Shown here: positions 38,985 through 55,693 of the stretch, piece by piece
How the letters are laid out: the number at the start of each line of letters is the position of its first letter
Numbering within the stretch: the first letter of the stretch is position 1
Source: Cephalothrix simula
Taxonomy: Eukaryota; Nemertea; Palaeonemertea; Archinemertea; Cephalotrichidae
NCBI GenBank assembly: GCA_035591015.1
Contig: JAXIUW010206952.1
Coordinates: 62,001-126,000 of the forward strand
Direction of reading: 5' to 3'
DNA: 64,000 nucleotides
Translations under genes and position numbers: made by a program
The notes under the pieces: model-generated
What the model was told of the DNA's origin: nothing
What the model saw: only the letters and a program-made list of their open reading frames with translations
Databases searched by the model: none

Positions 38985-39716
38985 ATGTTGTCACAGCAGC
39001 GCAGAATAAAATATTGGAATTTTTTTCTGATCACCAGTTTAGCTACATTAACTGTTCTAGCTATAATCATGGCTTTACAGGGCTACTTTGCCTTGGCGAT
39101 GAGCCTGATTATGCTACCTCTAGCCGCCCTTATTTACACTATTGAACAGCACCTAAAGGCGCCGCTACTTAAGGTAGAACAGCTAGAAGAGCGCCTGACC
39201 GAAATAATCAGCTGGAAGGTAGGGAGCAGTCTTGAGCAAAAATCTAGCTACATTATGCAAATTAATGCCCTAGGAGCAGCTCCGTCAACCATGAACAAGG
39301 CTGAACTAGCAGGAATTAACCTTGATGGTTGTAACTTGAACAAAACCAATTTGCATCAGGCTAATTTAGTTGGAGCCTCGCTACAAGGAGCCGATTTAAG
39401 CGGTGCTGACATGTCTTATGCCGATTTAAGTGGTGCTGATCTTAGTCGTGCCGATTTAAGCGGTGCCGATTTTCGTCATGCCATTTTAAGCGAGGGATTG
39501 CTGGCCAATGCTCGAGTTGATGGTGCTAATTTTAGGCATGCTGAGCTGAGTAATGCCGACATTCGTGGTTGTAAGTTTTCAGCAGAGCAGATTTTGCGCG
39601 CTCGTTTTTTTAGAGCTAATGAACTTTTTCCACTAATGCATGTTAGCGTTGATGATTGGATTAGAGCAAATGTGAATTCTAAGGGACTGTTTATAAATGA
39701 TATTACGAAAAAATAA
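38985..39716 (+). CDS. Pentapeptide-repeat membrane protein
   Basis: A 243-residue protein with two N-terminal membrane segments (FFLITSLATLTVLAIIMALQ and YFALAMSLIMLPLAALIYTI), a short coiled coil, then about 15 A(D/N)LxX pentapeptides at residues 110-195 (LAGINLDGCNLNKTNLHQAN; GADLSGADMSYADLSGADLS), which form a right-handed beta-helix. The C-terminal 45 residues are non-repeat. Function unknown; membrane-tethered members are common. Confidence 0.8.
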   Translation: MLSQQRRIKYWNFFLITSLATLTVLAIIMALQGYFALAMSLIMLPLAALIYTIEQHLKAPLLKVEQLEERLTEIISWKVGSSLEQKSSYIMQINALGAAPSTMNKAELAGINLDGCNLNKTNLHQANLVGASLQGADLSGADMSYADLSGADLSRADLSGADFRHAILSEGLLANARVDGANFRHAELSNADIRGCKFSAEQILRARFFRANELFPLMHVSVDDWIRANVNSKGLFINDITKK

Positions 39717-40027
39717 ACATCTCTTTGAAAATAATGCTTGCTATAATCTATGAGTAGGGTAAATTGGTCAGCGGATGAGCAAATGCTCTGATAGTTGCGG
39801 ATATAACTTGCACTAGTGGCTGGTTATTGATACGCTTCGCTGTGAGTCTCGCTTTGCTGTAGCAGAGGCTCAAAAGTATAAACAAAAGCAACGCAGTTTG
39901 ATACCTGCTTGAAGCTAATGTTTGAAGTAGGATAATTATTAGATGATGATTATTAGATAGTTTGTTCTAGTTAAGCAGGTGTTAATCTGCGATAACTAGC
40001 AGTTTTATTCGGAATAATCCGATTTAA

Positions 40028-40055: not shown

Positions 40056-40076
40056 GAAAGTGGATTGAGTAGTGTG
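40056..40076 (+). other. 5' arm of 16S precursor processing stem
   Basis: GAAAGTGGATTGAGT then AGTGTG here is complementary to CACACT (41867-41872) plus ACTCAATCCACTTTC (41878-41892), with a 5-base bulge on the 3' side. The two arms enclose the 16S gene, the layout of an RNase III site in a pre-16S stem. Confidence 0.7.
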
Positions 40077-40217: not shown

Positions 40218-40579
40218 AAACTCAAGAGTTTGATCCTGGCTCAGAACGAACGCTGGCGGTGTGCCTAATACATGCAAGTCGAACGCGAAAGCCGTCTTCG
40301 GATGGTGATTAGCGTGGCGCACGGGTGAGTAACACGTAGATAACCTGCCTTTTAGCCTGGAATAACCTCTTGAAAAAGAGGGTAATACCGGATATATTCG
40401 GCGACCGATGGTCATTGAATGAAAGGTTTACCACTAAAAGAGGGGTCTGCGCGGCATTAGCTTGTTGGTGGGGTAAAGGCCTACCAAGGCTACGATGTCT
40501 AGCGGGTCTGAGAGGATGATCCGCCACACTGGAACTGAGACACGGTCCAGACTCCTACGGGAGGCAGCAGTAGGGAATA

Positions 40580-40611
<32 letters not shown>

Positions 40612-40685
40612 ACCGCGTGAGTGAAGAAGGCTCTCGGGTCGTAAAACTCTTTTTTAGGGGAAGATAATGACGGTACCCTAAGAAT

Positions 40686-40740
<55 letters not shown>

Positions 40741-40964
40741 GTTCGGATTTACTGGGCGTAAAGGGCGTGTAGGCTGAAGCGTAAGCTAGGAGTGAAATCC
40801 CCGAGCTCAACTTGGGAACTGCTTCTAGAACTGCGCTTCTAGAGGAAGTCAGAGGCAGGCGGAATTCCTGGTGTAGAGGTGAAATTTGTAGATATCAGGA
40901 GGAACACCGGCGGCGAAGGCGGCCTGCTGGGGCTTACCTGACGCTGAGGCGCGAAAGCATGGGT

Positions 40965-40995
<31 letters not shown>

Positions 40996-41094
40996 TGCCG
41001 TAAACGATGGGCACTCGATGCACGAGGTGTGATCCCTTGTGTGTCCCAGCTAACGCGGTAAGTGCTCCGCCTGGGGACTACGGTCGCAAGACTA

Positions 41095-41135
<41 letters not shown>

Positions 41136-41235
41136 GATGTGGTTTAATTCGATACAACGCGAAGAACCTTACCTGGTCTTAACTTCCTGGTAAACCCTCA
41201 GAGATGAGGACTGCTTCTTTGAAGCAACCAGTGAT

Positions 41236-41306
<71 letters not shown>

Positions 41307-41363
41307 ATTTTCAGTTGCCAACAGGTAATGCTGGGAACTCTGGAAAAACAGCCGGTGATAAAT

Positions 41364-41394
<31 letters not shown>

Positions 41395-41489
41395 ATGGCC
41401 CTTACGACCAGGGCTACACACGTCCTACAATGGTGCCTACAAAGAGTCGCTAATCCGCGAGGACATGCAAATCTCAAAAAAGGCATCCA

Positions 41490-41526
<37 letters not shown>

Positions 41527-41557
41527 CGGAATCGCTAGTAATCGCGCAACAGCTTGG

Positions 41558-41611
<54 letters not shown>

Positions 41612-41675
41612 TGATGTCGGCAGAAGACGTTTCGCTAACCGCAAGGAGGCATACGTCCAAGCCGCTGTCGATGAC

Positions 41676-41714
<39 letters not shown>

Positions 41715-41733
41715 CTGCTGGATCACCTCCTTT
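40218..41733 (+). rRNA. rrs: 16S ribosomal RNA
   Basis: Full-length, about 1516 nt. Landmarks: AGAGTTTGATCCTGGCTCAG (40225-), GTGCCAGCAGCCGCGGTAA, AAACTCAAAGGAATTGACGG, CAACGAGCGCAACCC, TTGTACACACCGCCCGTC, and the end GGATCACCTCCTT with the CCTCC anti-Shine-Dalgarno. The GGGGACCCGCACAAGC block is unlike gammaproteobacteria. Ends placed by comparison with the E. coli layout (within a few bases). Confidence 0.96.
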
Positions 41734-41927
41734 TTAAGGAAGAAGATGGTTAAGCAGGATGTTTAGTGTGCTGAAGATACATCGCTTAAGAATACTTAAA
41801 AGTAGACTTAAGCATGTATTTATAGTTACATGAGGCATTCAACAAACACCATAGACAATTCCTGATCACACTAGCTAACTCAATCCACTTTCTTTTTTTC
41901 TTTCTATTTCCATGCTGATGGTTAGTT

Positions 41928-41934
41928 GGGCCTG

Positions 41935-41974
<40 letters not shown>

Positions 41975-42001
41975 CCGGATGTTCGACCCATCCCAGGCCC
42001 A
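41928..42001 (+). tRNA. tRNA-Ile (GAT)
   Basis: 74 nt: acceptor GGGCCTG / CAGGCCC with discriminator A, anticodon loop CTGATAA (GAT), T arm GGATG TTCGACC CATCC. CCA not encoded. It keeps its usual place about 195 bp after 16S, inside the rRNA spacer. Confidence 0.94.
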
Positions 42002-42393
42002 TAGTAACTTGGTGCTGTTTACAGATATCAAGGTATTGCTTGTTAACACCGTTTGCAGGATGACAGAGATGATAAGACGATACTAATGATAGAGACGGTT
42101 GGCGAGTTAGCGAACTTTTTAGTGCCTCACGATTTAATTCCTAATTTACTACTTAATATTGCCTTCTGATTTATCTCGTAATTTTATCTTTTAGTTTATC
42201 TCTCAATTCATCTACCATCATCTACCAAGTTATTTACCCTATTTGTTTCCTGATTTACTGCTTGATTTATTCTCATGTGTGCCAGAGAGTTGCCCAGCGC
42301 ATGCAGTCAGGCTTTTTAGATATGGGTGCTATAGGCAACATGCTTGGGGTGAACTATCAACGCAAAAATCAAAGATTACTGTTGAGTGCCTAG
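42002..42393. other. Gap after tRNA-Ile, T-rich, no gene
   Basis: No gene recognised. A weak hairpin gttggcgagttagcgaac followed by TTTTT at about 42099-42120 could be a terminator after tRNA-Ile, supporting separate transcription. The following 120 bp are T-rich with recurring tttatct/atctacc words. Confidence 0.4.
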
Positions 42394-43152
42394 ATGGGAC
42401 TGAGTATTGAGTTAATCATCTTTCTATTTTTAGTGGCTGTTATAGCTGGTTACGTTGATACAATTGCCGGCGGTGGCGGGCTAATCAGTATTCCAGCATT
42501 AATGTTGGCGGGACTTCTACCGGCTACCGCCATAGCCACTAATAAACTGCAAGGCAGTGTTGGAACATTGACTGCGTCTAGCTATTTTTTGAGAAAGCGA
42601 GCGGTTAAACTTGGTGATCTAAAGTTAGCGATTGTAGCAACATTTATTGGCTCTATCTTAGGTGGTTGGCTTGTATTGCGAATTGATGCGCAATATCTAA
42701 TGCGCTTGTTGCCATTTTTGTTGCTGGCTATGGGTCTTTATTATTTATTCTCGCCGAATATCAGCAATAAAGATCGGCAGCAAAAAATATCTTTATATAC
42801 ATTTTCATTATTTGTGGCTTTAATTCTTGGCTTTTACGATGGTTTTTTTGGCCCGGGAACCGGTAGCTTGATGGCACTTTCATTTGTAACGCTATTAGGA
42901 TACAGCCTGCCCAAAGCTACTGCCAATTCAAAAATACTTAATTTTGTTAGTAATATATCAGCCTTGATCTATTTTATGCTATTTGGTGATATAAGTTGGT
43001 CTATTGGCGTTTTAATGATGGCGGGGCAATACATAGGGGCAACAATCGGCGCAAAAATGGTCATTGAAAAAGGCGTTGCTCTTATCAGGCCAATGGTGGT
43101 TATCATTTGTTTTTTGATGTCACTAAATATTATACTAAAGCTCTACCTATGA
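42394..43152 (+). CDS. TSUP family transporter (TauE/SafE, YfcA-like)
   Basis: A 252-residue inner-membrane protein with eight hydrophobic segments. The two family repeats are present: AGYVDTIAGGGGLISIPALM with ATNKLQGSVG, and LGFYDGFFGPGTGSLMALSF with ATANSKILNFVSN. Closest by eye to YfcA. TSUP proteins export or import sulphite, sulphoacetate and other organic anions; substrate not determinable. It lies between tRNA-Ile and tRNA-Ala of the rRNA spacer, a place that normally holds no protein gene. ATG 42394. Confidence 0.9.
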   Translation: MGLSIELIIFLFLVAVIAGYVDTIAGGGGLISIPALMLAGLLPATAIATNKLQGSVGTLTASSYFLRKRAVKLGDLKLAIVATFIGSILGGWLVLRIDAQYLMRLLPFLLLAMGLYYLFSPNISNKDRQQKISLYTFSLFVALILGFYDGFFGPGTGSLMALSFVTLLGYSLPKATANSKILNFVSNISALIYFMLFGDISWSIGVLMMAGQYIGATIGAKMVIEKGVALIRPMVVIICFLMSLNIILKLYL

Positions 43153-43354
43153 AGGCTGCATAACAAAAAATCAGATTAATAATTATCGCCGCTATTGTTG
43201 AATAACTCGCTAAGTAGATATTGCCGATTAACATTGCTAGCTAGATATTATGCTGTATAATGTCGCTCTATGATGCAATGGCATAAGCATTAATTGGCTA
43301 TAGCAAGGTCATTAGATAGTTGTAAAGCCGATTTTATTACACGGTTACTAATTG

Positions 43355-44434
43355 ATGAAACGTATGGATAATTTTGCCGATAAAATTAAAGCTATTGCTG
43401 AAAAAATAAAAGAAGGACTACTAACCCGTAGATTTCTGACTTTCTTTATAATATTGGCCTGTATTTTTGGATCTTTCGCCTTACTTGATTATTTTCGTGC
43501 AATTTTAGACAGTGAGCGGCTTAGTATTACCTTGGGTAGCTTTTCTGTTTCTATTTACAAATTGATACGAATTTTGTTTGTAGTTGGGCTGTTGCTATGG
43601 GCTGCACGGACGGTTTCTATGTATAGTAGCCTACTTTTAGATAAGCTAGGTTCAGTTTCGGCAGGCAATAGAATGATTATCAGCAAGGCTATTGAGATCA
43701 GCATTTATGTGCTGCTGTTCATACTGGGCGTTGATTTTTTAGGGATTGATTTTAAGTCATTCGCTATTTTTAGCGGTGCCGTGGGCTTGGGTTTAGGCTT
43801 TGGACTACAAAAGATTGCGGCAAACTTTATTAGCGGAGTTATTTTGCTGTTTGAAAACTCAGTTAAGGTTGGAGATTTAATTCAGGTTGGTAATGCAAAG
43901 TTGGGCTATGTGCGTGATGTAGGCTTTAGAAGAACCTTAATAGCGGCTTTTGAAGGGATGGAGGTTTTGATTCCGAATGAAGAGCTTATTACTAGCCATG
44001 TCTCTAACTATACGCACAGTGATAATGCGGCGCGGGTGGATGTTCAGGTTGGAGTAGATTACTCATCAGACTTAGATTTGGTTCAAAAAATATTGCTTGA
44101 GTCTGCCGCCGAATATGATGTTGGAGATGATGCCCATCCTCCACGATGTTTTTTGCGAGAATTTGGTGACAATTCAGTTAACTTCTTGCTAATGTTCTGG
44201 ATTAAAGATATAAATGCGGGATCTTATGGAGCAAAAAGCGCAGTTATGTTTAAGATCTGGAATAGTTTCAAAAAGCATGGTATTGGTATTCCATTTCCGC
44301 AACGAGATTTACACATTAAAGGTATTGTGCATAATAGTATAGTACCTGAAGATGTTGAACAGATAATACAGGCTGATGCCGATAATCAAAAAGAAACCAA
44401 ACCGACTAGAGGTGTTAAGAAAAAATCTAAGTAG
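43355..44434 (+). CDS. Mechanosensitive ion channel (MscS family)
   Basis: A 359-residue channel (start at ATG 43355; a TTG one codon before is also in frame). Membrane segments at about residues 28-48, 70-90, 105-125, then the pore helix: SFAIFSGAVGLGLGFGLQKI and ANFISGVILLFENSVKVGDL, the MscS TM3/beta-domain junction. The beta domain VGFRRTLIAAFEGMEVLIPN and C-terminal alpha/beta domain follow. Protects against hypo-osmotic shock. Encoded between tRNA-Ile and tRNA-Ala; its stop is 21 bp before tRNA-Ala. Tail is Lys-rich (RGVKKKSK). Confidence 0.92.
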   Translation: MKRMDNFADKIKAIAEKIKEGLLTRRFLTFFIILACIFGSFALLDYFRAILDSERLSITLGSFSVSIYKLIRILFVVGLLLWAARTVSMYSSLLLDKLGSVSAGNRMIISKAIEISIYVLLFILGVDFLGIDFKSFAIFSGAVGLGLGFGLQKIAANFISGVILLFENSVKVGDLIQVGNAKLGYVRDVGFRRTLIAAFEGMEVLIPNEELITSHVSNYTHSDNAARVDVQVGVDYSSDLDLVQKILLESAAEYDVGDDAHPPRCFLREFGDNSVNFLLMFWIKDINAGSYGAKSAVMFKIWNSFKKHGIGIPFPQRDLHIKGIVHNSIVPEDVEQIIQADADNQKETKPTRGVKKKSK

Positions 44435-44455
44435 AAGCATCTTGGCCAATCACTA

Positions 44456-44524
44456 GGGGAATTAGCTCAATTGGTAGAGCGCCTGCCTTGCACGCAGGAG
44501 GTTACCGGTTCGATTCCGGTATTC

Positions 44525-44528
<4 letters not shown>
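44456..44528 (+). tRNA. tRNA-Ala (TGC)
   Basis: 73 nt: acceptor GGGGAAT / ATTCTCC with discriminator A, D arm AGCTCAATTGGTAGAGC, anticodon arm CTGCCTTGCACGCAG (TGC), T arm ACCGGTTCGATTCCGGT. CCA not encoded. Usually follows tRNA-Ile by tens of bases in rRNA spacers; here it is 2.45 kb away. Confidence 0.94.

Positions 44529-44555
<27 letters not shown>
44529..44555 (+). repeat. (CT)13 microsatellite
   Basis: Twenty-seven bases of perfect CT alternation starting at the base after the tRNA-Ala discriminator. Long perfect dinucleotide tracts are uncommon in bacteria and mutate by slippage; this one would be part of the tRNA 3' trailer. Confidence 0.95.
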
Positions 44556-45259
44556 GATTAACCGTTATCAGTCAAACTGAGGGCCACTTGAACGCCTTTA
44601 CAATTAATCATTAAAACTCTTTTATCTATAAAGGATTACGCCAGTTAGCTGAAGTTGTTTGAGGCTGCGTTTAAGGTTTGGTTTATGATATGTTTGGCCT
44701 GATACTGTGATATTTTCTGGTTAGTCGGACACCTGATTATTTAGCAGAAAAGCAAACAATCAATCCGCATAATGAACTGGATTGGATCGTTGTAGGCGCA
44801 ACGGCTTTAGCTAACAATAAGAAAAACTATTGCCAAATATCTGCCTAGCGTATTCAGCACCAGAAAAGCATTGCTCGCTCTCTAAAGAGGATGGTTAAGG
44901 CATGACTGAGGCAGAATACTTTAGCACTCATCCCAAGTTAGAGCTTGAAGAATTTGATGAGTAGATAGGTGTTGTAAATATAGAAATCCTGAGACAATGC
45001 AATCAGGTGCTATGTAAAGAGATTAGCAGGCAGTTTGTTCGTTACTCGCGCACAAACTTTGATGTAAAAATACTCTTGCGCTACACAAATGGTTATCAAT
45101 AGTCATCAATTGTAGGCCACGACTATCAAGTATTTGGATGGTCTTTCTGAAAGGTTCTTTGAGAGAAAAACCAAAGACAGGCTCAACCCAACTCAAGCAT
45201 CCATGGCAGGTTTGGTTAACTATGACTAAACAGTTGTAGAGCGAAGCTCGGTCAAGTTA
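44556..45259. other. Decayed sequence, possible gene remnants
   Basis: No intact gene in 704 bp. Coding-like pieces occur on the plus strand: an open stretch of about 45 codons ending at the TAG at 44846-44848 (includes NPHNELDWIVVGATALANNK), a short frame MTEAEYFSTHPKLELEEF near 44900, and a piece near 45020 (RQFVRYSRTNFDVKILLRY). They sit in different frames and broke apart, so I read this as the remains of one or more lost genes of unknown type. Confidence 0.35.
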
Positions 45260-46207
45260 TCAGAAACCGAAGTTATAATCAGATTTTATGCCAAACACAA
45301 AGGCATCACCAGATTTAACTTTGATGCCCGAGGCCGTGTAGTCTGGTCCAGAACCAGTGAAAAGAGTTTTGCCATTGCTCAGTATATGAGCTTCAAGATC
45401 TAACCTAAGTGACCAAGTATCATTGTTGATATTGCCCCCAAAGCCCGTAGAAAATATGATGCCCACGCCAGCACCGCTGCCCATAGCGATGCTTTCGGCA
45501 TAGTCAAGATCAGTATTTACAGCTAGGGCAACATCTAAACCTAGGGATAAATTTATATAGGCTGCGTCAGCAATGGGAAAGATAACACCATTATCTATGT
45601 TAAAGACCAGCCGCGAGCCAAATTTTGTGTCCAGCTCATCTGAACTACTTGAGCCCGAAGATGTAATGCCAGCAAGGTCTACTATTACTCCTGCGCCTCC
45701 AAGGTAGAGGCCACTGGTGTAGCGAACGTTAAGAGCAAAATCTCCATCATTGAGCATGTGTAGAGGCATTCTATGGGCATCATTATTGATATTTATCAGC
45801 ATATTCAAGACAGTTGAATCGTTGCCATCTTCATAAATAGAAGAAAATTTGATTGAACCGCCAAAGGTTGCCCCGCTTTCTTTATGACGATAACCACTGG
45901 TAGCAAGGCTAATATGCCTATAGTAAAAATTTGCGCCAGCTCCGAGTTCAATACCATTTGAAAAGCGCCAACCATAACCCAACCTAATCAATGAGTGATT
46001 GATGCTAGACTTTATGTTGCTTTTGTTATCTGAGTAAAAATTGAGAAAGCCGGTAACATTATCAGCATCAATAATCAGCCTAGAGCCACTATCATCCTGA
46101 CCTAAGGCTGTGGTTGAAGATATAAATCCTAGCAGCATGGCCACAACCAAGCCTAGCGCCTTAGTAGCAGTAAGTTGTTGAATATTGGTAAATTTAATTT
46201 TTAACAT
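45260..46207 (-). CDS. Outer-membrane beta-barrel protein (first of three)
   Basis: 315 residues. Signal peptide ALGLVVAMLLGFISSTTALG then QDDSGS. Alternating strands throughout (LIRLGYGWRFSNGIELGAGA; AGVGIIFSTGFGGNINNDTW) and a C-terminal VFGIKSDYNFGF ending in Phe, the usual signal for barrel insertion. A -10-like TATAAT lies at 46247-46252 (minus strand). More distant from the two paralog-like barrels downstream in the same block but shares layout. Located antisense between tRNA-Ala and 23S. Function unknown. Confidence 0.75.
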   Translation of the reverse strand: MLKIKFTNIQQLTATKALGLVVAMLLGFISSTTALGQDDSGSRLIIDADNVTGFLNFYSDNKSNIKSSINHSLIRLGYGWRFSNGIELGAGANFYYRHISLATSGYRHKESGATFGGSIKFSSIYEDGNDSTVLNMLININNDAHRMPLHMLNDGDFALNVRYTSGLYLGGAGVIVDLAGITSSGSSSSDELDTKFGSRLVFNIDNGVIFPIADAAYINLSLGLDVALAVNTDLDYAESIAMGSGAGVGIIFSTGFGGNINNDTWSLRLDLEAHILSNGKTLFTGSGPDYTASGIKVKSGDAFVFGIKSDYNFGF

Positions 46208-46323
46208 ACAGATTTTGAATGATATTACGTAGCTAGCAAAGCACAGATTATAGCCAAATAGGCCGATATACTAGGTCAATTATATAGGAATGGTTTAAGT
46301 AATCAAAAAAAAGCTGTGAAATT

Positions 46324-46509
46324 CTAAATTACGTTTATTAGTATATAGTTAGATAGCGTAGCATTCATGAGAAGGCCAAAATTATACCCTAGAGGCTGGT
46401 ATTTATTGCTAATGGTGTCGCCAATATTAAAGCCAAAACTACCATCGGCAATAAATGCTCGCTTATATTTAGATTCAAAAAAATCAGCCTCCCGACACTT
46501 ATAAAGGCT
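46324..46509 (-). pseudogene. Fragment of a barrel-like C-terminus
   Basis: An open minus-strand stretch of 61 codons with no start that ends in FNIGDTISNKYQPLGYNFGL and then LMNATLSNYILINVI before the stop. The alternating pattern resembles the end of an outer-membrane strand set. Upstream it is closed by a TGA in frame. Probably the remains of another copy of the barrel family; not proven. Confidence 0.35.
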
Positions 46510-46907
46510 TCATTTAGTGGCAACTGCTAAGACCATCGACAGCGTGTAGCATTAGTTTTCAGCTAATATTTAGACCAAAGTTAGTCGCAGTTGGCACGTA
46601 GTCGTAAGTATAAGGCACAGCTATTATTAGCACTATATGGCCACGGTGATGGAAATCTCTAATCGCCTTAGACTAAGTTTAGCCACCATATTAAAGCAAT
46701 TAGCTAATCAAGAGCATTATCGCCTTATGTAGCAACTGCCAAAAACCATCGGCTGAATATAGAGATTTAGCTTGATTCTAGTGGCAGTCGGCGTAACCTA
46801 TTCTTAAAGTACGACATTTTTATAGCTAAAGTTTTAATTCGCTACTCGGCAATGACTATAACCGGATAAAACGATTAATAGCTCACTTGCTGAGGGCATA
46901 AAAGGTA

Positions 46908-46933
46908 GCGCCCCGCATTATGAAACGGGGTGC
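46908..46933 (-). terminator. Intrinsic terminator of the second barrel gene
   Basis: On the minus strand GCACCCCGTTTCATAATGCGGGGCGC forms a stem, followed by a short T-rich tract (TACCTTTTA). It lies 19 bp beyond the stop and is homologous to the terminator at 48345-48370. Confidence 0.75.
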
Positions 46934-46952
46934 CGTTGGATGTAGTGCGGAC

Positions 46953-48167
46953 TTATAAACTAAGTTTATAGTTCATATCTAAGGTAATTTTGTAGGTGGG
47001 AGCGGCCTTTATAGCTACTTTTTCATTACCGATTTCAACGATAGGAGCTTTAATACTATAGAAGGCACTATCAAAATTCAGTACTATCGACCAGCGATGT
47101 TCGCCAACGGAACTGCCAATGCCCACTCCTAAACCCTGAACTAGAGCTACGCCGGAGTGTTCTTTGTTTTCTTCTTTATCTGCAGAGCTTTTGGGTAATA
47201 TATTTTTCATAACTAATCGCACAGTAGAGCGCCACTCCAATATCAAATCAAGATTTTCAGATAACTCTATGCCATCATTGCCATATTTGGCCATGAAAGA
47301 GAACTGCCACAGCGATTTAGCGGTGGTTGATGACCCAGAAACAGAAGGAATGCTGTACTTGATGGGAGAACCAAATTCTAAGACGATATCAGCGTAAAAT
47401 GAAGTAAAGGATGTGTTCAAATACCCGGCAATACTATAGGTGGGGATAGTCAATCCATAAGGTAGTTTCTCCTTCGTGCTATTATAAGCAAGGATTAATC
47501 CGGATGATATTAGTAGTGTATTTCCTTTTTCTTCTAAGTCTAGTGCTGCACCTAGTTTGAACGAACCACCAAAATCAAAGCCTTTTTCAGGGTTCGTCGT
47601 GCCGGTATATGCTTGGATACCCTGATGATATCTGAGTTTTAGACCAAGCCCTAACTCAAGCCCAGAGGCAAACAATCGGCTATAGTCTACGGTTGCATAA
47701 CCAACTCTATATGCCTCTTTGGTTTTTAATGTTTGCTGACCAATAGTATCGTACTCAACCTCGGCAAATAGGCTGCCGCCACTGAGGTGTACATCCAACT
47801 TGTGCCGATAGCCAGCAAAGGCGTTTATATCTTGAATTACCGCATTATCGGCTACTGAGGTATCGGTCGCTGAGATAGCATCATCAGCTTGAGTTACTAT
47901 ATCGGTTACGGGGATGATATCATCAGCTTGAATTGCCTCATCAGCTACTGAGGTAACGCCATCAGCTTGAGGTATTACATCGGCTGCTGGGATGGTGCTC
48001 TCGGTTTGAATTACTACATCATCTACTGTGGTGGCGTCATCAGCTTGAATTGCCGTATCGGCTTCTGGTGTGGTCGTCTCTTGACCGAAGGCCGGCAATG
48101 CCAAAAATATAATTGATGCGCTAACCATAGCCATCAAAAGGCTAATTAACCAAGAATATCTGAACAC
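46953..48167 (-). CDS. Outer-membrane beta-barrel protein with 13-residue repeats (second of three)
   Basis: About 404 residues from GTG 48167, which has AGGA six bases upstream; the frame is open to GTG 48194. Signal peptide WLISLLMAMVSASIIFLALP, cleaved after AFG/Q. Then five 13-residue acidic repeats and a barrel: AFAGYRHKLDVHLSGGSLFA ... ending YKITLDMNYKLSL. The barrel part is clearly homologous to the neighbour at 48390-49445 (AGYxxKLDxxL near the start; the GLGVGxGxxVGxxRW motif; YKITLDxxY at the end). Has its own sigma70-like promoter (48218-48246) and terminator. Function unknown; perhaps a surface porin or adhesin. Confidence 0.8.
   Translation of the reverse strand: MFRYSWLISLLMAMVSASIIFLALPAFGQETTTPEADTAIQADDATTVDDVVIQTESTIPAADVIPQADGVTSVADEAIQADDIIPVTDIVTQADDAISATDTSVADNAVIQDINAFAGYRHKLDVHLSGGSLFAEVEYDTIGQQTLKTKEAYRVGYATVDYSRLFASGLELGLGLKLRYHQGIQAYTGTTNPEKGFDFGGSFKLGAALDLEEKGNTLLISSGLILAYNSTKEKLPYGLTIPTYSIAGYLNTSFTSFYADIVLEFGSPIKYSIPSVSGSSTTAKSLWQFSFMAKYGNDGIELSENLDLILEWRSTVRLVMKNILPKSSADKEENKEHSGVALVQGLGVGIGSSVGEHRWSIVLNFDSAFYSIKAPIVEIGNEKVAIKAAPTYKITLDMNYKLSL
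47859..48053 (-). repeat. Five 39-bp tandem repeats in the second barrel gene
   Basis: Encodes five 13-residue units, consensus x-I-Q-A-D-D-x-x-x-V-x-D-x (first AIQADDATTVDDV, fourth AIQADDIIPVTDI). The neighbouring paralog has a single unit (VTQTDDTTTAADD). The units form an Asp-rich linker between signal peptide and barrel. Confidence 0.85.
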
Positions 48168-48217
48168 ACGTCTTCCTAAAAAGTTTTTACACACACCTAC
48201 TTAACTAGGTCTGCGTG

Positions 48218-48246
48218 ATGCTAAGTTAAAGCAAACGGCCTGTCAA
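48218..48246 (-). promoter_or_regulatory. Sigma70-type promoter of the second barrel gene
   Basis: On the minus strand TTGACA (48246-48241), 17-bp spacer, TAGCAT (48223-48218). The perfect -35 box and spacing are matched in the paralog upstream region at 49507-49535. Confidence 0.7.
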
Positions 48247-48344
48247 TAGTCTATATTTTTTAGTAGTGTTCTGCGCTTTCATCCTCAGCAAGGGCTATAA
48301 CCGAATAACACGGTCAATAACCTACTTGCCGAGGGCAAAAAGTT

Positions 48345-48370
48345 GCACCCCGCATTGTGAAACGGGGTGC
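48345..48370 (-). terminator. Intrinsic terminator of the third barrel gene
   Basis: On the minus strand GCACCCCG / CGGGGTGC forms an 8-bp stem around TTTCACAATG, followed by AACTTTTT. Homologous to the terminator at 46908-46933. Confidence 0.85.
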
Positions 48371-48389
48371 CGTTGGGTATAGGATGGCC

Positions 48390-49445
48390 TTAGAAGTTAA
48401 ATGTGTAGTCTACATCTAAGGTGATTTTGTAGGCTGGGGTGAGGTCAACACCTATATTAGGCGTATTAACCTCAAATTTATCAACCAAGTTGGCTAAGAC
48501 ATCAAAGGCTAGCAATGTTGACCAGCGATCTTTGCCAACGAGTCCGCCAACGCCCACCCCTAAACCTCCACCCAAAACCCAGTCGGTTCTATATTTTATA
48601 TTGGTTTCGCTAGCGGTGGTGGTAATGGTTCCACTGCCATTAACGCCACTGTGTATATTGAGGCGACCTTCTAACAGAAGATCAACATTGTCAGCGATTG
48701 CTATACCTCGGTATCCCAATCTAGTCGCAAAGACTAAACGGCCGCCTAAATCAATGACAATCTTTGTGCCTTCCTCAGCAAAGTTAGTGTACTTTTCTCC
48801 TAAATACATACCTATCACGAGGTCCCCATACGTACCGTCGTTTAATGATGCTTGCATGTAGAAGCTGATATCACCCTCTGGCCTAGTTAACTCATAAGAT
48901 AATCCCGGGGTCAAGTTAGTATAAGAACCTATAACACCTAGTGACATTACGTTGCTATTAAATGTTTCGATTACCCCACCAAGTTTGAGCATGGCACTAT
49001 AACTGTTGACACTAGTGGTTGTGCTTGTGCCAGTAGAATTTTTTGTGGTATCCCAGCCGTACAAATAACCTGCACCAACCCCTAGCTCAAACCCAAAATC
49101 AAACAGCCAATCATAACCTACAGTCAGATAACCCATTTCGTTGTGTTTTTTAGTTTTCAATGTCTGAATACCAAAAATATTGTAATCAACATCGGCAATA
49201 ACACTGACAAATCTCAGGCGTAGATCCAACTTACTTTGATAACCAGCCAGAGCATTTATGCCTTGTTCTGCTACATCATCGGCTGCTGTGGTGGTGTCAT
49301 CGGTTTGGGTTACTGTATCTGTCGCTGGAGCTTCTGGCTCTTGAGCCAACGCCGGCATTGTTGAAAAAACGATTATTGCCGAGCTAAACAAGCCTAATAC
49401 AAAGCTATTTAACGCAAGTCGGATGGGGTGTGTGAACATAATCAT
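48390..49445 (-). CDS. Outer-membrane beta-barrel protein (third of three)
   Basis: 351 residues from ATG 49445, preceded by GAGGA; the frame continues to a GTG at 49460. Signal peptide LNSFVLGLFSSAIIVFSTMP, cleaved near ALAQ/EPEAP. One Asp-rich repeat unit, then a barrel: INALAGYQSKLDLRLRFVSV, VGYDWLFDFGFELGVGAGYL, VGVGGLVGKDRWSTLLAFDV and ending YKITLDVDYTFNF (terminal Phe). Paralog of the second barrel gene, with its own matching promoter and terminator. Function unknown. Confidence 0.82.
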   Translation of the reverse strand: MIMFTHPIRLALNSFVLGLFSSAIIVFSTMPALAQEPEAPATDTVTQTDDTTTAADDVAEQGINALAGYQSKLDLRLRFVSVIADVDYNIFGIQTLKTKKHNEMGYLTVGYDWLFDFGFELGVGAGYLYGWDTTKNSTGTSTTTSVNSYSAMLKLGGVIETFNSNVMSLGVIGSYTNLTPGLSYELTRPEGDISFYMQASLNDGTYGDLVIGMYLGEKYTNFAEEGTKIVIDLGGRLVFATRLGYRGIAIADNVDLLLEGRLNIHSGVNGSGTITTTASETNIKYRTDWVLGGGLGVGVGGLVGKDRWSTLLAFDVLANLVDKFEVNTPNIGVDLTPAYKITLDVDYTFNF

Positions 49446-49506
49446 AGTAGGCGTCCTCACTAGATGGGGTTAATGTTTGCTTGTATTACTTAACTAAGTT
49501 TTGGAA

Positions 49507-49535
49507 ACGCTAAATCAAATCAACCTGCCTGTCAA
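49507..49535 (-). promoter_or_regulatory. Sigma70-type promoter of the third barrel gene
   Basis: On the minus strand TTGACA (49535-49530), 17-bp spacer, TAGCGT (49512-49507). Same architecture as the paralog at 48218-48246, and the flanking sequence (CTATTGACAGGC) is conserved. Confidence 0.7.
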
Positions 49536-49812
49536 TAGCTAATTTTCCCAAGCAATGCTAACCACTAACTACAGCGGTTTGTGCCGTATGATTAGCCAAA
49601 AGAGTAATTTACAACCACCCCCGTAGAATAGCTTTGTACTGCAATTTTAAGCCGTTACTAAAATAATCAAAAAATAAACTGAATATGGCGATAAAAAAGT
49701 CTTGCTATAACAAAATTTATTCTATAGGATGCTTGTTGGTCGTTGAAAAATGACTCCCAAATTTAGAGCCTGCGGCTATGGTCGTTAAGAACTGGGCAAT
49801 GCCCGTGTTTTC

Positions 49813-49842
49813 TTGATAAAAGCCTGTCGGGCGTGTTATAGC
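49813..49842 (+). promoter_or_regulatory. Candidate promoter for 23S rRNA
   Basis: TTGATA (49813-49818), 18-bp spacer, TATAGC (49837-49842). A start near 49849 would coincide with the first base of the 23S processing stem. Weak as a sequence, but placement matches the 16S candidate. Confidence 0.35.
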
Positions 49843-49847
49843 GAAAG

Positions 49848-49886
49848 TGAATTGTCAAAGTAAAAATATATATCAAAGACTTCTAA
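49848..49886 (+). other. 5' arm of 23S precursor processing stem
   Basis: TGAATTGTCAAA and ATATATCAAAGAC pair with GTCTTTGATATATTTTGGCAATTCA at 52981-53005, with a few unpaired bases between and TTCTAA / TTAGAA extending the stem. The arms enclose the 23S gene, as RNase III stems do. Confidence 0.7.
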
Positions 49887-49930
49887 TTAAGCGGCAATGT
49901 TTCTTGCTGTTTTGCCGTAGATAATTAAGG

Positions 49931-50411
49931 AGTCAAGTACAAAAGGGCGCAAGGTGGATGCCTTGGCTCTGGGAAGCGATGAAGGACGTGACAAGCTGCG
50001 ATAAGCTTCGGTTAGGCGCAAATAGCCTTTGACCCGGAGATTTCCGAATGGGGTAACCCGGTAAAAGTAATGTTTTATCATCTCTTTGCTAATACATAAG
50101 CTTAGAGAAGCTAACGTAGGGAACTGAAACATCTAAGTACCTACAGGAAAAGAAATCAAACGAGATTCCCTTAGTAGCGGCGAGCGAAACGGGAAGAGCC
50201 CAAACCGGTCGATGCGTCGGCCGGGGTTGTAGGACCACAACAAAGCATGGGAAGAGATAGAAAAACAGTCTGGAAAGGCTGGCCATAGAGGGTAATAGCC
50301 CCGTATTCGAAATCTCTAAGCCCAGTTTAGTGGTATCCTGAGTAGTTCGGGACACGTGAAATCCTGAGTGAAGCTGGGTGGACCATCATCCAAGGCTAAA
50401 TATTCCCCAGA

Positions 50412-50457
<46 letters not shown>

Positions 50458-50873
50458 GACAAGGGGAGTGAAATAGATCCTGAAACCTTGCGCTTAAAAG
50501 CAGTGGAAGCGCAACGCCCTTCGGGGCAAGGCGTGACCGCGTGCCTTTTGCATAATGAGCCAACGAGTTATGGTTTGTAGCGAGGTTAAGCTTTATGAGC
50601 AGAGCCGTAGCGAAAGCGAGTCTGAATAGGGCTAAAAGTTGCAGGCTGTAGACCCGAAACCGAGTGATCTATCCCTGTCCAGGTTGAAGCTTGGGTAAGA
50701 TCAAGTGAAGGACCGAACCAGTGTGCCTTAAAAAGCGCTTGGATGAGGTGGGGATAGGAGTGAAAGGCTAATCAAACTCGGAAATAGCTGGTTCTCCCCG
50801 AAATATATTTAGGTATAGCCTCGTTGACATCTTCCGGTGGTAGAGCACTGAATGGGCTAGGGGGCCCACCAGC

Positions 50874-50904
<31 letters not shown>

Positions 50905-51056
50905 AAAGATTAGCAACGGGAGTCAGACTGTGGGAGCTAAGTTCCATAGTCGAAAGGGAAACAACCCAGACCATCAGCTAAGGTCCCCAAATATCGATTA
51001 AGTGGTGAAGGATGTGGATATGCACCGACAACCAGGAGGTTAGCTTAGAAGCAGCT

Positions 51057-51096
<40 letters not shown>

Positions 51097-51811
51097 TCTG
51101 CGCCGAAAATATAACGGGGCTTAAATCGGTTACCGAAGCTATGGGTAGTCATGATTTATCATGGCTGCGGTAGGGGAGCGTTCGTTACGGGGTGAAGGTA
51201 GATCGACAAGAGCTACTGGACGGTAACGAAGTGATTATGTTGGCATAAGTAACGATAAAGCGGGTGAGAATCCCGCTCGCCGAAAATCCAAGGTTTCCTC
51301 AGCTATGTTCGTCAGCTGAGGGTTAGTCGGTCCCTAAGGTCAGGCCGAAAGGCGTAGTCGATGGGAAACAGGTTAACATTCCTGTACTGGCAAAAAAGTG
51401 TTTGAGTGAAGGGGTGACGTAGAAGGTTAGGTCATCCAGGTGATGGATATCCTGGTTTAAGAGTGTAGATGGACTGCATAGGCAAATCCGTGCGGTCGTT
51501 ACCATTGAGACTCGATGACGAGGGGCTTGCCCCGCAAAGTGATTGATACCATGCTACCAAGAAAAACCTCTAAACGAATTTTTTTGCCAACCGTACCGTA
51601 AACCGACACAGGTGGATGAGGAGAGAATCCTAAGGCGCGTGAGACAAATCATGCTAAGGAACTCTGCAAATTGGGTTCGTAACTTCGGAAGAAGAACCGC
51701 CCGGACTAGGTTAAGTCTCCTTGCGAGATGTAAGCCGAAACGGGTTGCAGTGAAAAGGCCCAGGCGACTGTTTAGCAAAAACACAGCACTCTGCAAACGC
51801 GCGAAGCGGAA

Positions 51812-51856
<45 letters not shown>

Positions 51857-51888
51857 GGTTAGAAAACTTGTTTTCGAAGCTTTGAATT

Positions 51889-51926
<38 letters not shown>

Positions 51927-51927
51927 A

Positions 51928-51971
<44 letters not shown>

Positions 51972-52429
51972 TGGCGTAACGATCTGGGCGCTGTCTCGGC
52001 ATGATACTCAGTGAAATTGAAATAGCTGTGAAGATACAGCTAACCCGCAGCAAGACGGAAAGACCCCGTGAACCTTTACTCTAGCTTGGCAGTGATTTTT
52101 GGATTAATTTGTGTAGGATAGGTGGGAGGCTTTGAAGCGTGTGCGCTAGCATGCGTGGAGCCAACCTTGAAATACCACCCTAATTGATTTAGGAATCTAA
52201 TTCTGGCCTGTGAATCCAGGTCGAAGACACTGTCTGGTGGGGAGTTTGACTGGGGCGGTCGCCTCCTAAACAGTAACGGAGGCGTGCGAAGGTTCCCTCA
52301 GGCTGATTGGAAACCAGCCATCGAGTATAAAGGCAAAAGGGAGCTTGACTGTGAGAGCGACAGCTCGAGCAGGGACGAAAGTCGGTCTTAGTGATCTGGT
52401 GGATTCCGTATGGAAGGGCCATCACTCAT

Positions 52430-52460
<31 letters not shown>

Positions 52461-52516
52461 AATCACGCCCAAGAGTTCACATCGACGGCGTGGTTTGGCA
52501 CCTCGATGTCGACCCA

Positions 52517-52581
<65 letters not shown>

Positions 52582-52582
52582 T

Positions 52583-52619
<37 letters not shown>

Positions 52620-52908
52620 TGCTGTGGGCGCAGGAAATTTGAGGGTAGCCACTCTTAGTACGAAAGGACCAGAGTGGACGAACCAATGGTGTTCCGGTTG
52701 TTCCGCCAGGGGCATCGCCGGGTAGCTATGTTCGGAAAGGATAACTGCTGAAAGCATATAAGTAGGAAGCCTCACCCAAGATAGATTTCCCTGAGGTGGA
52801 AGCACCTCCTAAAGACCACAGGAAGACTACCTGATTGATAGGCGGGATGTGTAAGCGTAGTAATATGTTTAGCTAACCCGTACTAATAGGTCGTGAGGCT
52901 TGACTCCT
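49931..52908 (+). rRNA. rrl: 23S ribosomal RNA
   Basis: About 2978 nt. Landmarks: GGTGGATGCCTTGGC near the 5' end, GTACCGTGAGGGAAAGG, AACTATAACGGTCC, GCAAGACGGAAAGACCCCG, GGGATAACAGGCTAATC, the sarcin-ricin loop AGTACGAAAGGACC, and GTACTAATAGGTCGTGAGGC at the end. No intron or large insertion noticed. Lies 8.2 kb after the 16S end. Ends estimated from the E. coli layout. Confidence 0.96.
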
Positions 52909-53027
52909 TTTTATCTATGGACTTTGTTTTTAGATAAATAATAGACAAGGATAAATACTAGAAGGATAATCCTTAGAAAGGTCTTTGATATATTTTGGCA
53001 ATTCATTGTTTTTTTGAAGAAAATTTA

Positions 53028-53144
53028 TTCCGGTGGCTATTGCTGAAGTGCTACACCTGTTCCCATTCTGACCACAGAAGTTAAGCCTTTAAGCGCCTAT
53101 GGTACTGCCATAGTTTTTGGTGGGAGAGTGGGTGCTGCCGGGGT
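53028..53144 (+). rRNA. rrf: 5S ribosomal RNA
   Basis: About 117 nt. Contains ACACCTGTTCCCATTCTGAC, CACAGAAGTTAAGC and GGTGGGAGAGTGGGTGCTGC, with ends TTCCGGTGGC and GCTGCCGGGG pairing. It sits about 120 bp after 23S. Ends estimated. Confidence 0.9.
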
Positions 53145-53236
53145 ATTCTCTTCAGCTTTCGTTATCAGTTTCTATATTATGGTTCTATGCTGTGGACCTG
53201 TGTTATTTACTCGCCGCTAGTTGATTTAACTCTGTT

Positions 53237-53309
53237 GGGCGCGTAGCTCAGTTGGGAGAGCGCTACCTTGACATGGTAGAGGCCGATGGTTCGATCCCGT
53301 CCGTGCCCA
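53237..53309 (+). tRNA. tRNA-Val (GAC)
   Basis: 73 nt: acceptor GGGCGCG / CGTGCCC with discriminator A, D arm AGCTCAGTTGGGAGAGC, anticodon arm CTACCTTGACATGGTAG (GAC), T arm GATGGTTCGATCCCGTC. CCA not encoded. Follows 5S by about 90 bp; next is a decayed restriction-modification region, so this tRNA could have been an insertion site (no flanking repeat found). Confidence 0.93.
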
Positions 53310-53420
53310 TTCAGTAGTGTGTTCATCATGAGTGTGGGTATCGTTGCCGTGTGATTGCTGCCGATGTATCATGGCGTATATACGTTGTGCGTATATTGCG
53401 GTGGATACGACTTATAGCCT

Positions 53421-54296
53421 ATGGCAGTGCTGACCACATCTAATCAAAAACAAGTCAAACCAATACAGTCTAATCAGCAGCTTGATGCATCATCTGCGCT
53501 CGCTCGCCCCTTCGTAAAGTGGGCTGGTGGCAAACGCTCTGTGCATAAAGAATTGTTGGGTCGGTTACCCAAATATTGGTCTAAGGCTGATGGCTATCAT
53601 GAGCCATTCTTAGGCGGTGGAGCATTATTTTTCGCCCTTGCGCCTCAGCAAGCTGATTTGGCGATATTAACGCCAATCTGATTACAACCTATCAAGCCTT
53701 CGTGATGATGAAGAGGCCGTAATCGCCAACCTTAAACGGCATAAAAGCGAACATAACCCCGATTACTATCAGCAAGCTCGGCAACGCTTGGGTGAGCATA
53801 ACTCGCCAACAGAACAGGCAGCATTGCTGATTTACCTCAATAAAACTTGCTATAACGGCCTGTATCGGGTTAATCGTTCGGGAAAATTTAATGTTCCGCT
53901 GGGCAAATATGCTAACCCAACTTTCTTAGATGCTGATAACTTGCGTGCCTGCTCAATGGTATTGCAAGAGCAGCGCATAGCTGAAAGAATTTTTCACGAA
54001 TGCCCGCTGATCAAAGGTGATTTTTACTATCTTGACCCACCCTATCATCAAACCTACAGTAGCTATGACGGGTCGGGTTTTGGTGATGCCGAACATCGCC
54101 AGCTAGCCGAGTTTTGCCAGCAGATTGATGCTGCCGGCGGCTATTTTATGCTTTCTAACAGTGATACAGAGTTGATTAGGGAGCTGTATGCTCGGTATGC
54201 TGACTATACCGAGGTGATTAGTGCCGGCGCTATATATCTTGTAATGGTGATAGCCGTGGACGCCAAAATGAACTGTTGATTAGGAATTATGCGTAG
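53421..54296 (+). pseudogene. Dam-family adenine-N6 DNA methylase, frameshifted
   Basis: A full-length D12-class methyltransferase (about 292 codons) is visible in three successive frames. Motif I FVKWAGGKRSVHKEL and YHEPFLGGGALFFAL are in the first frame; NKTCYNGLYRVNRSGKFNVP and the catalytic GDFYYLDPPYHQTYSSY with DPPY are in the second main frame; the usual ending (QNELLIRNYA) is in a third. The shifts lie near 53663, 53697 and 54225, each consistent with loss of one base in a G or C run. The last codons overlap the endonuclease start by 8 bp, as in genuine R-M pairs. Probably inactive, unless the shifts are sequencing errors. Confidence 0.8.
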
Positions 54297-54612
54297 CGGA
54301 GGCTCTCAAGCTAATTTATCGGGTAATTCCTTAGAGAAATTTGTAGAAAATGCTCTTATAGAAAATGGTTATAGTAACTCCGAACAAGACGCCAAGCACT
54401 ACATTAAGCAGCACAACTGCGGCAAGACCATTTATGGCACAAACCGCAAGTGCGACTTTTTTGTGCATAATATAGATAAATTCCCCAAGGGATTAGTTAT
54501 TGAATGTAAGTGGCAGCAAACACTGGGCAGTGTCAGGGGTTCCACCCCTAACAACCCCGGCAAGTCAACAAAACCCTTAACTAAATTAAATTCCAAACTT
54601 AATCTTGCTTAG
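54289..54612 (+). pseudogene. PD-(D/E)XK restriction endonuclease, truncated
   Basis: The first 80 or so residues look like the N-terminal half of a restriction enzyme that pairs with Dam-type methylases: GNSLEKFVENALIENGY, HNCGKTIYGTNRKCDFFV and FPKGLVIECKWQQTLGSV, which carries the D...ExK-type core (CDFF and IECK). After GSV the protein continues into the inverted end of the hairpin element (from 54532), giving an unrelated 27-residue tail. The C-terminal half of the enzyme is missing and is not found after the element. Starts ATG 54289. Confidence 0.72.
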
Positions 54613-55578
54613 TCTAACCCGGCAGGACAATTCTCTATTGTCCTGCTCCCACTGACTGGCCGAAGGCGTAGCCTTCGGCCAAGGTGGCAGTCACTATATA
54701 TTGCCTATAACTCCAAGCAGATTTGGTGCTAAATTAAACTCACGATAACCGCTTCAAACATTCCCCTAAACACCTTTGAGTGCAGGCATTGCCTGCGCTC
54801 AAGACTAGGGGTGCAGGGGCTAAAGCCCCTGCCGGGGGCTTGGGGGCGGTGCCCCCAAGTAATAAATACTTTGGCAAATAGCCTTGCTTACTTACGTGGG
54901 TGCAAGGCAATTCTCTATTGCCTTGCTGGAGCAGCAAACCCAGATAAAGCACTCTCCGAGGAAGGAGACTTATTTTGTCTTGCCGAAGCAGCCTCCTCAA
55001 AGTTAAAGAAACTCCTTGTCACTGGCAGTGAGGCTTTGTGAGGAGGACTAGTCCCCCTCACACTCCCCCAAGTGGGGAACTACTGCGTTCCCCACACTCC
55101 TAGCAACGGTGCTTATTCTATGCCTTTAGATATAGTCAAAAGGTAACTTTATCTTTAGGGGCGTCATTCAGCATGGTCATTTTTTCTATTTTGTCTGGGG
55201 TTAAGAGCAAAGCTCTTAACAATCCCAGCAATCTTTTTTAAGGGAGCTTCGCTCCCAGTACAATCCTATAGGTAGGGGCTGAAGTTTGTTGATTGGTCAC
55301 AGTAAGATGCAAAGTAGTTCCTTCACTGCCTAAGATCTTACGAGGTTGTGCAACAAATACTTTCTGAAGAGACCACAGTTTGTAGACTATTCTTGTATAT
55401 AGAAACGTTGTTGCTGGACAATACCCACAAAACCCTTTTAGTCTAAGTAATAGCAATGCTCATCTAATTTAAGTTATATAACGGCAAACTCATCGGCCGA
55501 AGGCGTGAGCCATCGGCCGAGTCAGAGGGTGCAGGGAGCGTGCTACCTGCCGGGGTTGTTAGGGGTGGAACCCCTGAC
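54532..55578. mobile_element. Hairpin-packed element with 31-bp inverted ends
   Basis: The first 31 bases (54532-54562, starting GTCAGGGGTTCCACCCC) are the exact reverse complement of 55548-55578. In between lie at least ten short perfect stem-loops, for example 54622-54646, 54658-54680, 54778-54800, 54813-54832, 54839-54859, 54902-54926, 55072-55095, 55201-55219 and 55242-55256. No open frame looks like a real gene, and no transposase is present, so it would be a non-autonomous element or a repeat cluster. No target duplication was seen at the ends. It cuts into the endonuclease gene. Confidence 0.65.
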
Positions 55579-55693
55579 GCCGCCCATCTACCTTATCACT
55601 TTGCTTACTTACATGGTGGTGCAAGGCAATTCTCTATTGCTTTGCCGGAGCGGAGCTACCGCAAATGCCGGATGAGCAAGGCAGGGGATTGTT
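55579..55693. repeat. Extra hairpin unit next to ribD-like gene
   Basis: Beyond the inverted end, tttgcttacttacatgg and the stem-loop GCAAGGCAATtctctATTGCTTTGC (55621-55645) repeat the unit at 54886-54926. It stops right at the end of the deaminase gene, suggesting the repeat cluster extends to 55693. Confidence 0.6.

Follow-up and report, generated by a model that had tools for sequence, protein, structure and literature searches.

How a cell balances its 16S and 23S ribosomal RNA (rRNA) after the operon that joins the two genes has been broken is an open question, and it is raised by a bacterial locus in the assembly deposited for the nemertean Cephalothrix simula (GCA_035591015.1; 8.6 Mb in 580 contigs). 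We analysed a stretch of 64,000 nucleotides, hereafter the window, which covers positions 62001–126000 of the 144,661-bp contig JAXIUW010206952.1 and in which 8,197 bp carrying five protein genes lie between the 16S and 23S rRNA genes. We give a probability of about 0.78 to the reading that an rRNA (rrn) operon was here interrupted at two points and is now transcribed as separate units. The ancestral layout is still legible in the gene order, the transfer RNAs (tRNAs) and the processing stems, and the matched pair of promoter-like sequences described below makes the locus directly testable.

Layout of the split rRNA locus

Rfam placements of the rRNA genes agree with the initial annotation, which had put all three on the plus strand in the usual order. 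The 16S gene (40218–41733; 1583 bits, model positions 1–1533) and the 23S gene (49931–52907; 2908 bits, model positions 1–2925) are both complete, and the 5S gene follows at 53029–53143. Two tRNA genes found by both ARAGORN and Rfam, tRNA-Ile(GAT) (41927–42002) and tRNA-Ala(TGC) (44456–44529), stand in the spacer on the same strand, and ARAGORN places tRNA-Val(GAC) after 5S (53236–53310, plus strand), the position that it also has in the related genomes G039 and G013. The spacer had been estimated at about 8.2 kb, with genes for a TSUP/TauE-family membrane transporter and an MscS-type mechanosensitive channel between the two tRNA genes; its measured length matches, and Pfam supports both plus-strand genes (TSUP, 42394–43152, E = 3.6e-50; MscS, 43352–44434, E = 9.3e-20). 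They lie in the 2,453 nt that separate tRNA-Ile from tRNA-Ala. The MscS start is annotated as the TTG at 43352, the ATG at 43355 being equally likely, and its stop lies 21 nt before tRNA-Ala. Three minus-strand genes with barrel-like products occupy the interval between tRNA-Ala and 23S. A run of 13 consecutive CT dinucleotides (44529–44554) lies immediately 3′ of tRNA-Ala.

An assembly artefact, in which a 16S end and a 23S end of separate origin were fused, could also produce an arrangement of this kind; PMC7761764 names assembly error as a cause of false split calls, and animal-like mitochondrial DNA among the contigs shows that the present assembly is a mixed one. We consider this explanation highly unlikely. 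Counting other rrn loci in the assembly, a check proposed in the initial annotation, returned a single match each for 16S and for bacterial 23S: no second 16S was found among the best 5 of 55 first-look candidates scored, and no second bacterial 23S among the best 2 of 91, so no repeat that might have confused the assembly was found. A chance mis-join is also unlikely because tRNA-Ala, for which no second match was found in the assembly, sits in the middle of the spacer in the right orientation, and because both rRNAs retain their flanking stems; the 5S–tRNA-Val order shared with G039 and G013 argues in the same direction. PMC7761764 defines unlinked rRNA genes by an internal transcribed spacer of more than 1500 bp; the spacer here, at 8,197 bp, is longer, both rRNAs are intact and, within the scored candidates, there is no linked copy elsewhere. 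The locus is a real split rrn locus, and the sole one found in this genome.

Relatives, probable ancestral order and inserted genes

To place the bacterium we compared it with the phylum of G001, a Lambdaproteobacteria genome, represented by 52 genomes; we take this phylum to be the little-known group called SAR324. The 16S gene was matched in 14 of these genomes, several of the matches being fragments, with a best identity of 87% by BLAST. Global 16S identities were 87.8% for G009, 87.2% for G008, 86.2% for G039 and 80.8–83.8% for three others, against 78.6% for the best listed Escherichia coli sequence, the sole comparison outside the phylum. Matches to PNPase had 49–55% identity, and some of them, among the best 120 of 7,999 listed, are named SAR324, Lambdaproteobacteria or Deltaproteobacteria. 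The sequence comparisons point to a SAR324-related bacterium.

The search for 23S covered the 14 genomes with a 16S match and found the gene in four; the other ten genomes, with at most 5–7 candidates scored in each, are uninformative on linkage. In all four, 16S and 23S lie in that order on one contig, with spacers of 416 bp (G039), 551 bp (G043, which has neither tRNA-Ile nor tRNA-Ala), 822 bp (G042, where the contig end cuts 23S) and 490 bp (G013, where the contig end cuts 16S), compared with 8,197 bp here; three of the four have the tRNA-Ile–tRNA-Ala pair and two have 5S followed by tRNA-Val(GAC). Because every relative with a found 23S is linked across so short a spacer, the split looks derived. 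The RNA scan covered seven of ten relative stretches (all but L042, L043 and L044), and among six loci scanned the two tRNA genes are adjacent, 1–85 nt apart, in each of the five relatives that have both. The nearest genomes, G008 and G009, keep tRNA-Ile and tRNA-Ala together, and their contigs stop before 23S. G025 was excluded, as a 5,000-base run of N starts 175 bases after its 16S.

Since relatives keep tRNA-Ile next to tRNA-Ala and tRNA-Val after 5S, the order in the window amounts to the old order plus two insertions. The ancestor would have had a linked 16S–tRNA-Ile–tRNA-Ala–23S–5S–tRNA-Val operon; one insertion of 2.45 kb (TSUP and MscS) would have separated the two tRNA genes, and another of 5.4 kb (the three barrel-like genes) would have separated tRNA-Ala from 23S. 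The initial annotation had likewise proposed to compare spacers in relatives, and the adjacency of the tRNA genes in five relatives agrees with its picture of a retained tRNA pair with insertions at two points. Its description of the locus as an intermediate state went further than these data, in which nothing shows an onward direction.

For TSUP and MscS we lean to a foreign origin. TSUP is matched in 26 of the 52 genomes of the phylum and MscS in 24, at best identities of 45% and 40%, respectively, which favours this view. Among the best 120 of 7,630 matches listed, a TSUP protein search gave a best identity of 73%, and 65% in Leucothrix; a scan of genome contigs for MscS returned a single distant locus, 21% identical, in a Lambdaproteobacteria genome.

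Candidate transcription signals and processing stems

Each half of the locus is preceded by a promoter-like sequence of the same type, an A-tract plus an extended −10, and this match suggests that the 16S and 23S halves are now read separately. In the 16S leader, AAAAAATAAAC (39708–39718) is followed after 18 nt by CTTGCTATAAT (39737–39747), the module spanning 39708–39747 on the plus strand; in the 23S leader, AAAAAATAAAC (49669–49679) is followed after 21 nt by CTTGCTATAAC (49701–49711), the module spanning 49669–49711 on the same strand. The leaders therefore share two collinear words, of 11 and 10 nt, a result reached by none of 2000 shuffled pairs, and the two-word match was reached by none of 1946 random window pairs. 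The pattern AAATAAAC-N14-25-TTGCTATAAY, which was derived from the same two sites that it finds, has two sites in the 8.6-Mb assembly, exactly before 16S and 23S, and its reversed control has none. The shorter motif TGnTATAAY, with six sites in the window on both strands, is present in both leaders, as in only 3 of 1000 shuffled pairs. With moderate confidence we regard the module as a candidate rrn promoter of this lineage.

Both rRNAs are also flanked by potential processing stems. The 16S arms, of 15 nt (40056–40070 and 41878–41892, plus strand), are exact complements, a length reached by none of 200 shuffles; the exact 23S stem, of 13 nt (49868–49880 and 52981–52993, plus strand), was reached by 2 of 200. 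When longer duplexes were scored by energy, shuffles did as well in 4 of 300 cases for 16S and 0 of 300 for 23S. Each rRNA is plausibly excisable from its own transcript. The 16S unit and the 23S–5S–tRNA-Val unit, each with its own promoter-like module and stem, would then most likely be transcribed separately and excised by the usual double-strand-specific cleavage, while tRNA-Ala would most likely be trimmed out of 16S read-through or an MscS transcript. The initial annotation had proposed separate transcription as probable, and the shared module supports this at the level of sequence.

Several observations weigh against this reading. The two-word statistic was picked post hoc, and its best control scored 20 against 21, one base shorter. 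The top local alignment of the two leaders does not cover the module, and 17 of 500 shuffles score as high; the aligned stretch began inside the 16S A-tract and so cut most of it away. CTTGCTATAAY occurs three times in the window, the third time at 53846 in the region of a broken methyltransferase gene, and neither rRNA module is on the list of a generic sigma-70 scan, which finds fewer sites than shuffled sequence does (20, against a mean of 28.2). The module is without comparative support, because TGnTATAAY is absent from the 600 bp before 16S in all six relatives with a complete 16S; the two-word module is absent from the same six leaders, and neither is present in the spacers of four relatives. 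Flanking stems are no proof of separation, because linked operons carry them too, and the mismatched pairing of the 23S upstream with the 16S downstream segment reaches −60.0, compared with −57.7 for the true 23S pair, the downstream partner being longer (the other mismatched pair reaches −33.6).

A rival explanation, which could hold with or without separate transcription, is that the modules match by chance and another promoter drives 23S. In its favour, the statistic is post hoc and its margin narrow, the relatives have no match, and 296 of 1000 shuffled pairs of leaders have a shared 10-mer on its own. The absence of two ordered words at near-equal spacing from all 2000 shuffles, the rarity of TGnTATAAY in both leaders at once and the lack of the full pattern anywhere else in 8.6 Mb make a chance match, in our view, unlikely.

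The minus-strand genes bear on whether one transcript could still span the locus. At E 0.001, Pfam assigns no family to gene 1 (45260–46207), gene 2 (46953–48194) or gene 3 (48390–49460), and one of these open reading frames (ORFs) has a sub-threshold match to DUF3575 (15.7 bits, below the cut-off of 21.1; E 0.0094). All three products have signal-peptide-like N-terminal ends, a C-terminal F or L and an excess of 170-degree hydrophobic alternation, as in beta strands (z = 4.3, 2.6 and 3.8), and their alpha periodicity has z = −0.9 to 0.5. These features hint at barrel-like proteins; the initial annotation was right about the place and strand of the genes, and its barrel assignment finds its basis in these sequence features and in the sub-threshold DUF3575 match. 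A one-sequence structure prediction for the gene 3 product had a mean pLDDT (a per-residue confidence score) of 29.6, and of 7,997 database candidates scored against it none reached E 0.001. Gene 2 is a paralogue of gene 3, with 100 of 299 aligned columns identical (33%), whereas no paralogue of gene 1 was found in the assembly. Direct repeats of 39 nt lie within gene 2, after its signal-like segment (47862–48067).

The flanks of genes 2 and 3 are duplicated as well. Each gene is preceded on the minus strand by a promoter-like TTGACA-17-TAGCRT, which has just these two sites in the window: TTGACA-17-TAGCAT before gene 2 (48218–48246; motif scan) and TTGACA-17-TAGCGT before gene 3 (49507–49535; found by repeat analysis and absent from the generic scan list). 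Beyond its 3′ end, each of the two genes has a terminator-like hairpin on the same strand (46909–46927 and 48345–48370, respectively), found in a terminator scan that gave 19 such sites in the region against 13.0 expected. The generic scan places a promoter-like site of gene 1 at 46306–46279. A 470-bp gap separates the start of gene 3 (49460) from 23S, and because gene 3 starts there on the minus strand, the two are transcribed away from each other. Judging from their promoter-like sites, genes 2 and 3, at least, would form independent minus-strand units, read in the direction opposite to the 23S promoter and away from it. The initial annotation had expected opposite-strand genes to face head-on transcription; because these sites point away from 23S, this does not apply to the 23S unit, and collision would be expected only if 16S-side transcripts read through beyond tRNA-Ala.

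Such read-through is what a still intact operon would need, in which an antiterminated precursor runs from 16S to 23S, with the minus-strand genes as passengers of low expression. All RNA genes do share a strand and keep the ancestral order, and no plus-strand intrinsic terminator is predicted in the 730 nt between tRNA-Ala and the first barrel-like gene (44530–45259), a stretch that contains no ORF of at least 60 amino acids. The precursor would nevertheless meet genes 2 and 3, with their repeated promoter-like and terminator-like flanks, head-on, and a promoter-like module of the 16S type stands close to 23S. We judge a single long operon to be quite unlikely, and prefer an operon interrupted twice and read as separate units. 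A further step is more tentative, and we hold it at somewhat less than even odds: at the split, the 23S half may have gained a copy of, or a match to, a lineage-specific rrn promoter, so that matched promoters rather than co-transcription would balance 16S and 23S; the bacterium may live as a symbiont of an animal, and the split may be recent enough for the old parts to remain legible.

Known split loci and accompanying DNA

Rickettsiales keep 16S and 23S–5S as separate units that lie far apart; the present locus resembles them in having what appear to be separate 16S and 23S–5S units, but these are 8.2 kb apart. Split rRNA loci are known, as the initial annotation stated for scattered lineages: PMC7761764 counts unlinked rRNA genes in 574 of 15,521 complete genomes, mostly those of symbionts. 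Our locus shares with that set a spacer above 1500 bp and a low rrn copy number, but its 16S and 23S genes have stayed side by side, with their strand and ancestral order unchanged. A close parallel is in relapsing-fever Borrelia (B. duttonii and B. recurrentis, as reported for B. hermsii), in which, according to PMC2525819, protein genes lie between 16S and 23S, splitting the sole 16S operon, and the spacing of tRNA-Ala and tRNA-Ile varies. Here, too, protein genes stand between 16S and 23S and the spacer tRNAs are kept; in place of hpt, purA and purB (PMC2525819), the inserts are TSUP and MscS together with the three barrel-like genes on the opposite strand and, unlike in Borrelia, the bacterium is probably related to SAR324 and the insertions lie on both sides of tRNA-Ala. 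The kind of arrangement is already known, both as unlinked rRNA genes and as Borrelia spacer protein genes. Four things look new: the lineage, the set of inserted genes, their placement to either side of tRNA-Ala and the pairing of matched promoter-like modules; one literature search returned no paper on SAR324 with unlinked rRNA. The locus adds an apparently derived case, from an animal-associated sample, to a phylum in which 16S and 23S are linked in each of the four genomes where both were found.

The association with an animal is hinted at by a mitochondrial contig, whereas the unlinked set in PMC7761764 consists mostly of symbionts. Two further large-subunit rRNA matches of the assembly sit on one 16.2-kb contig, of which we inspected 8.2 kb (L008; G000:C12:8001-16203). 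This stretch reads as animal-like mitochondrial DNA in the invertebrate mitochondrial code, and its frames presumably correspond to ND4, COB, ND1 and ATP6. Because this contig shares the assembly, the bacterium is accompanied by animal DNA, and it may be a symbiont, a guest or a contaminant.

Other features surround the locus. Just past tRNA-Val, a D12-class adenine methyltransferase gene is broken into two ORFs in different frames (53421–54279 and 54289–54612), followed by a PDDEXK_11-like ORF. A 42-nt inverted repeat, 93% complementary, has its arms 979 nt apart (54524–54565 and 55545–55586), with more palindromic repeats close by. Upstream of 16S, a lipoprotein-like ORF of 996 amino acids (35572–38562) carries many CWGxNxxGQLG-like repeats that look RCC1-like by eye.

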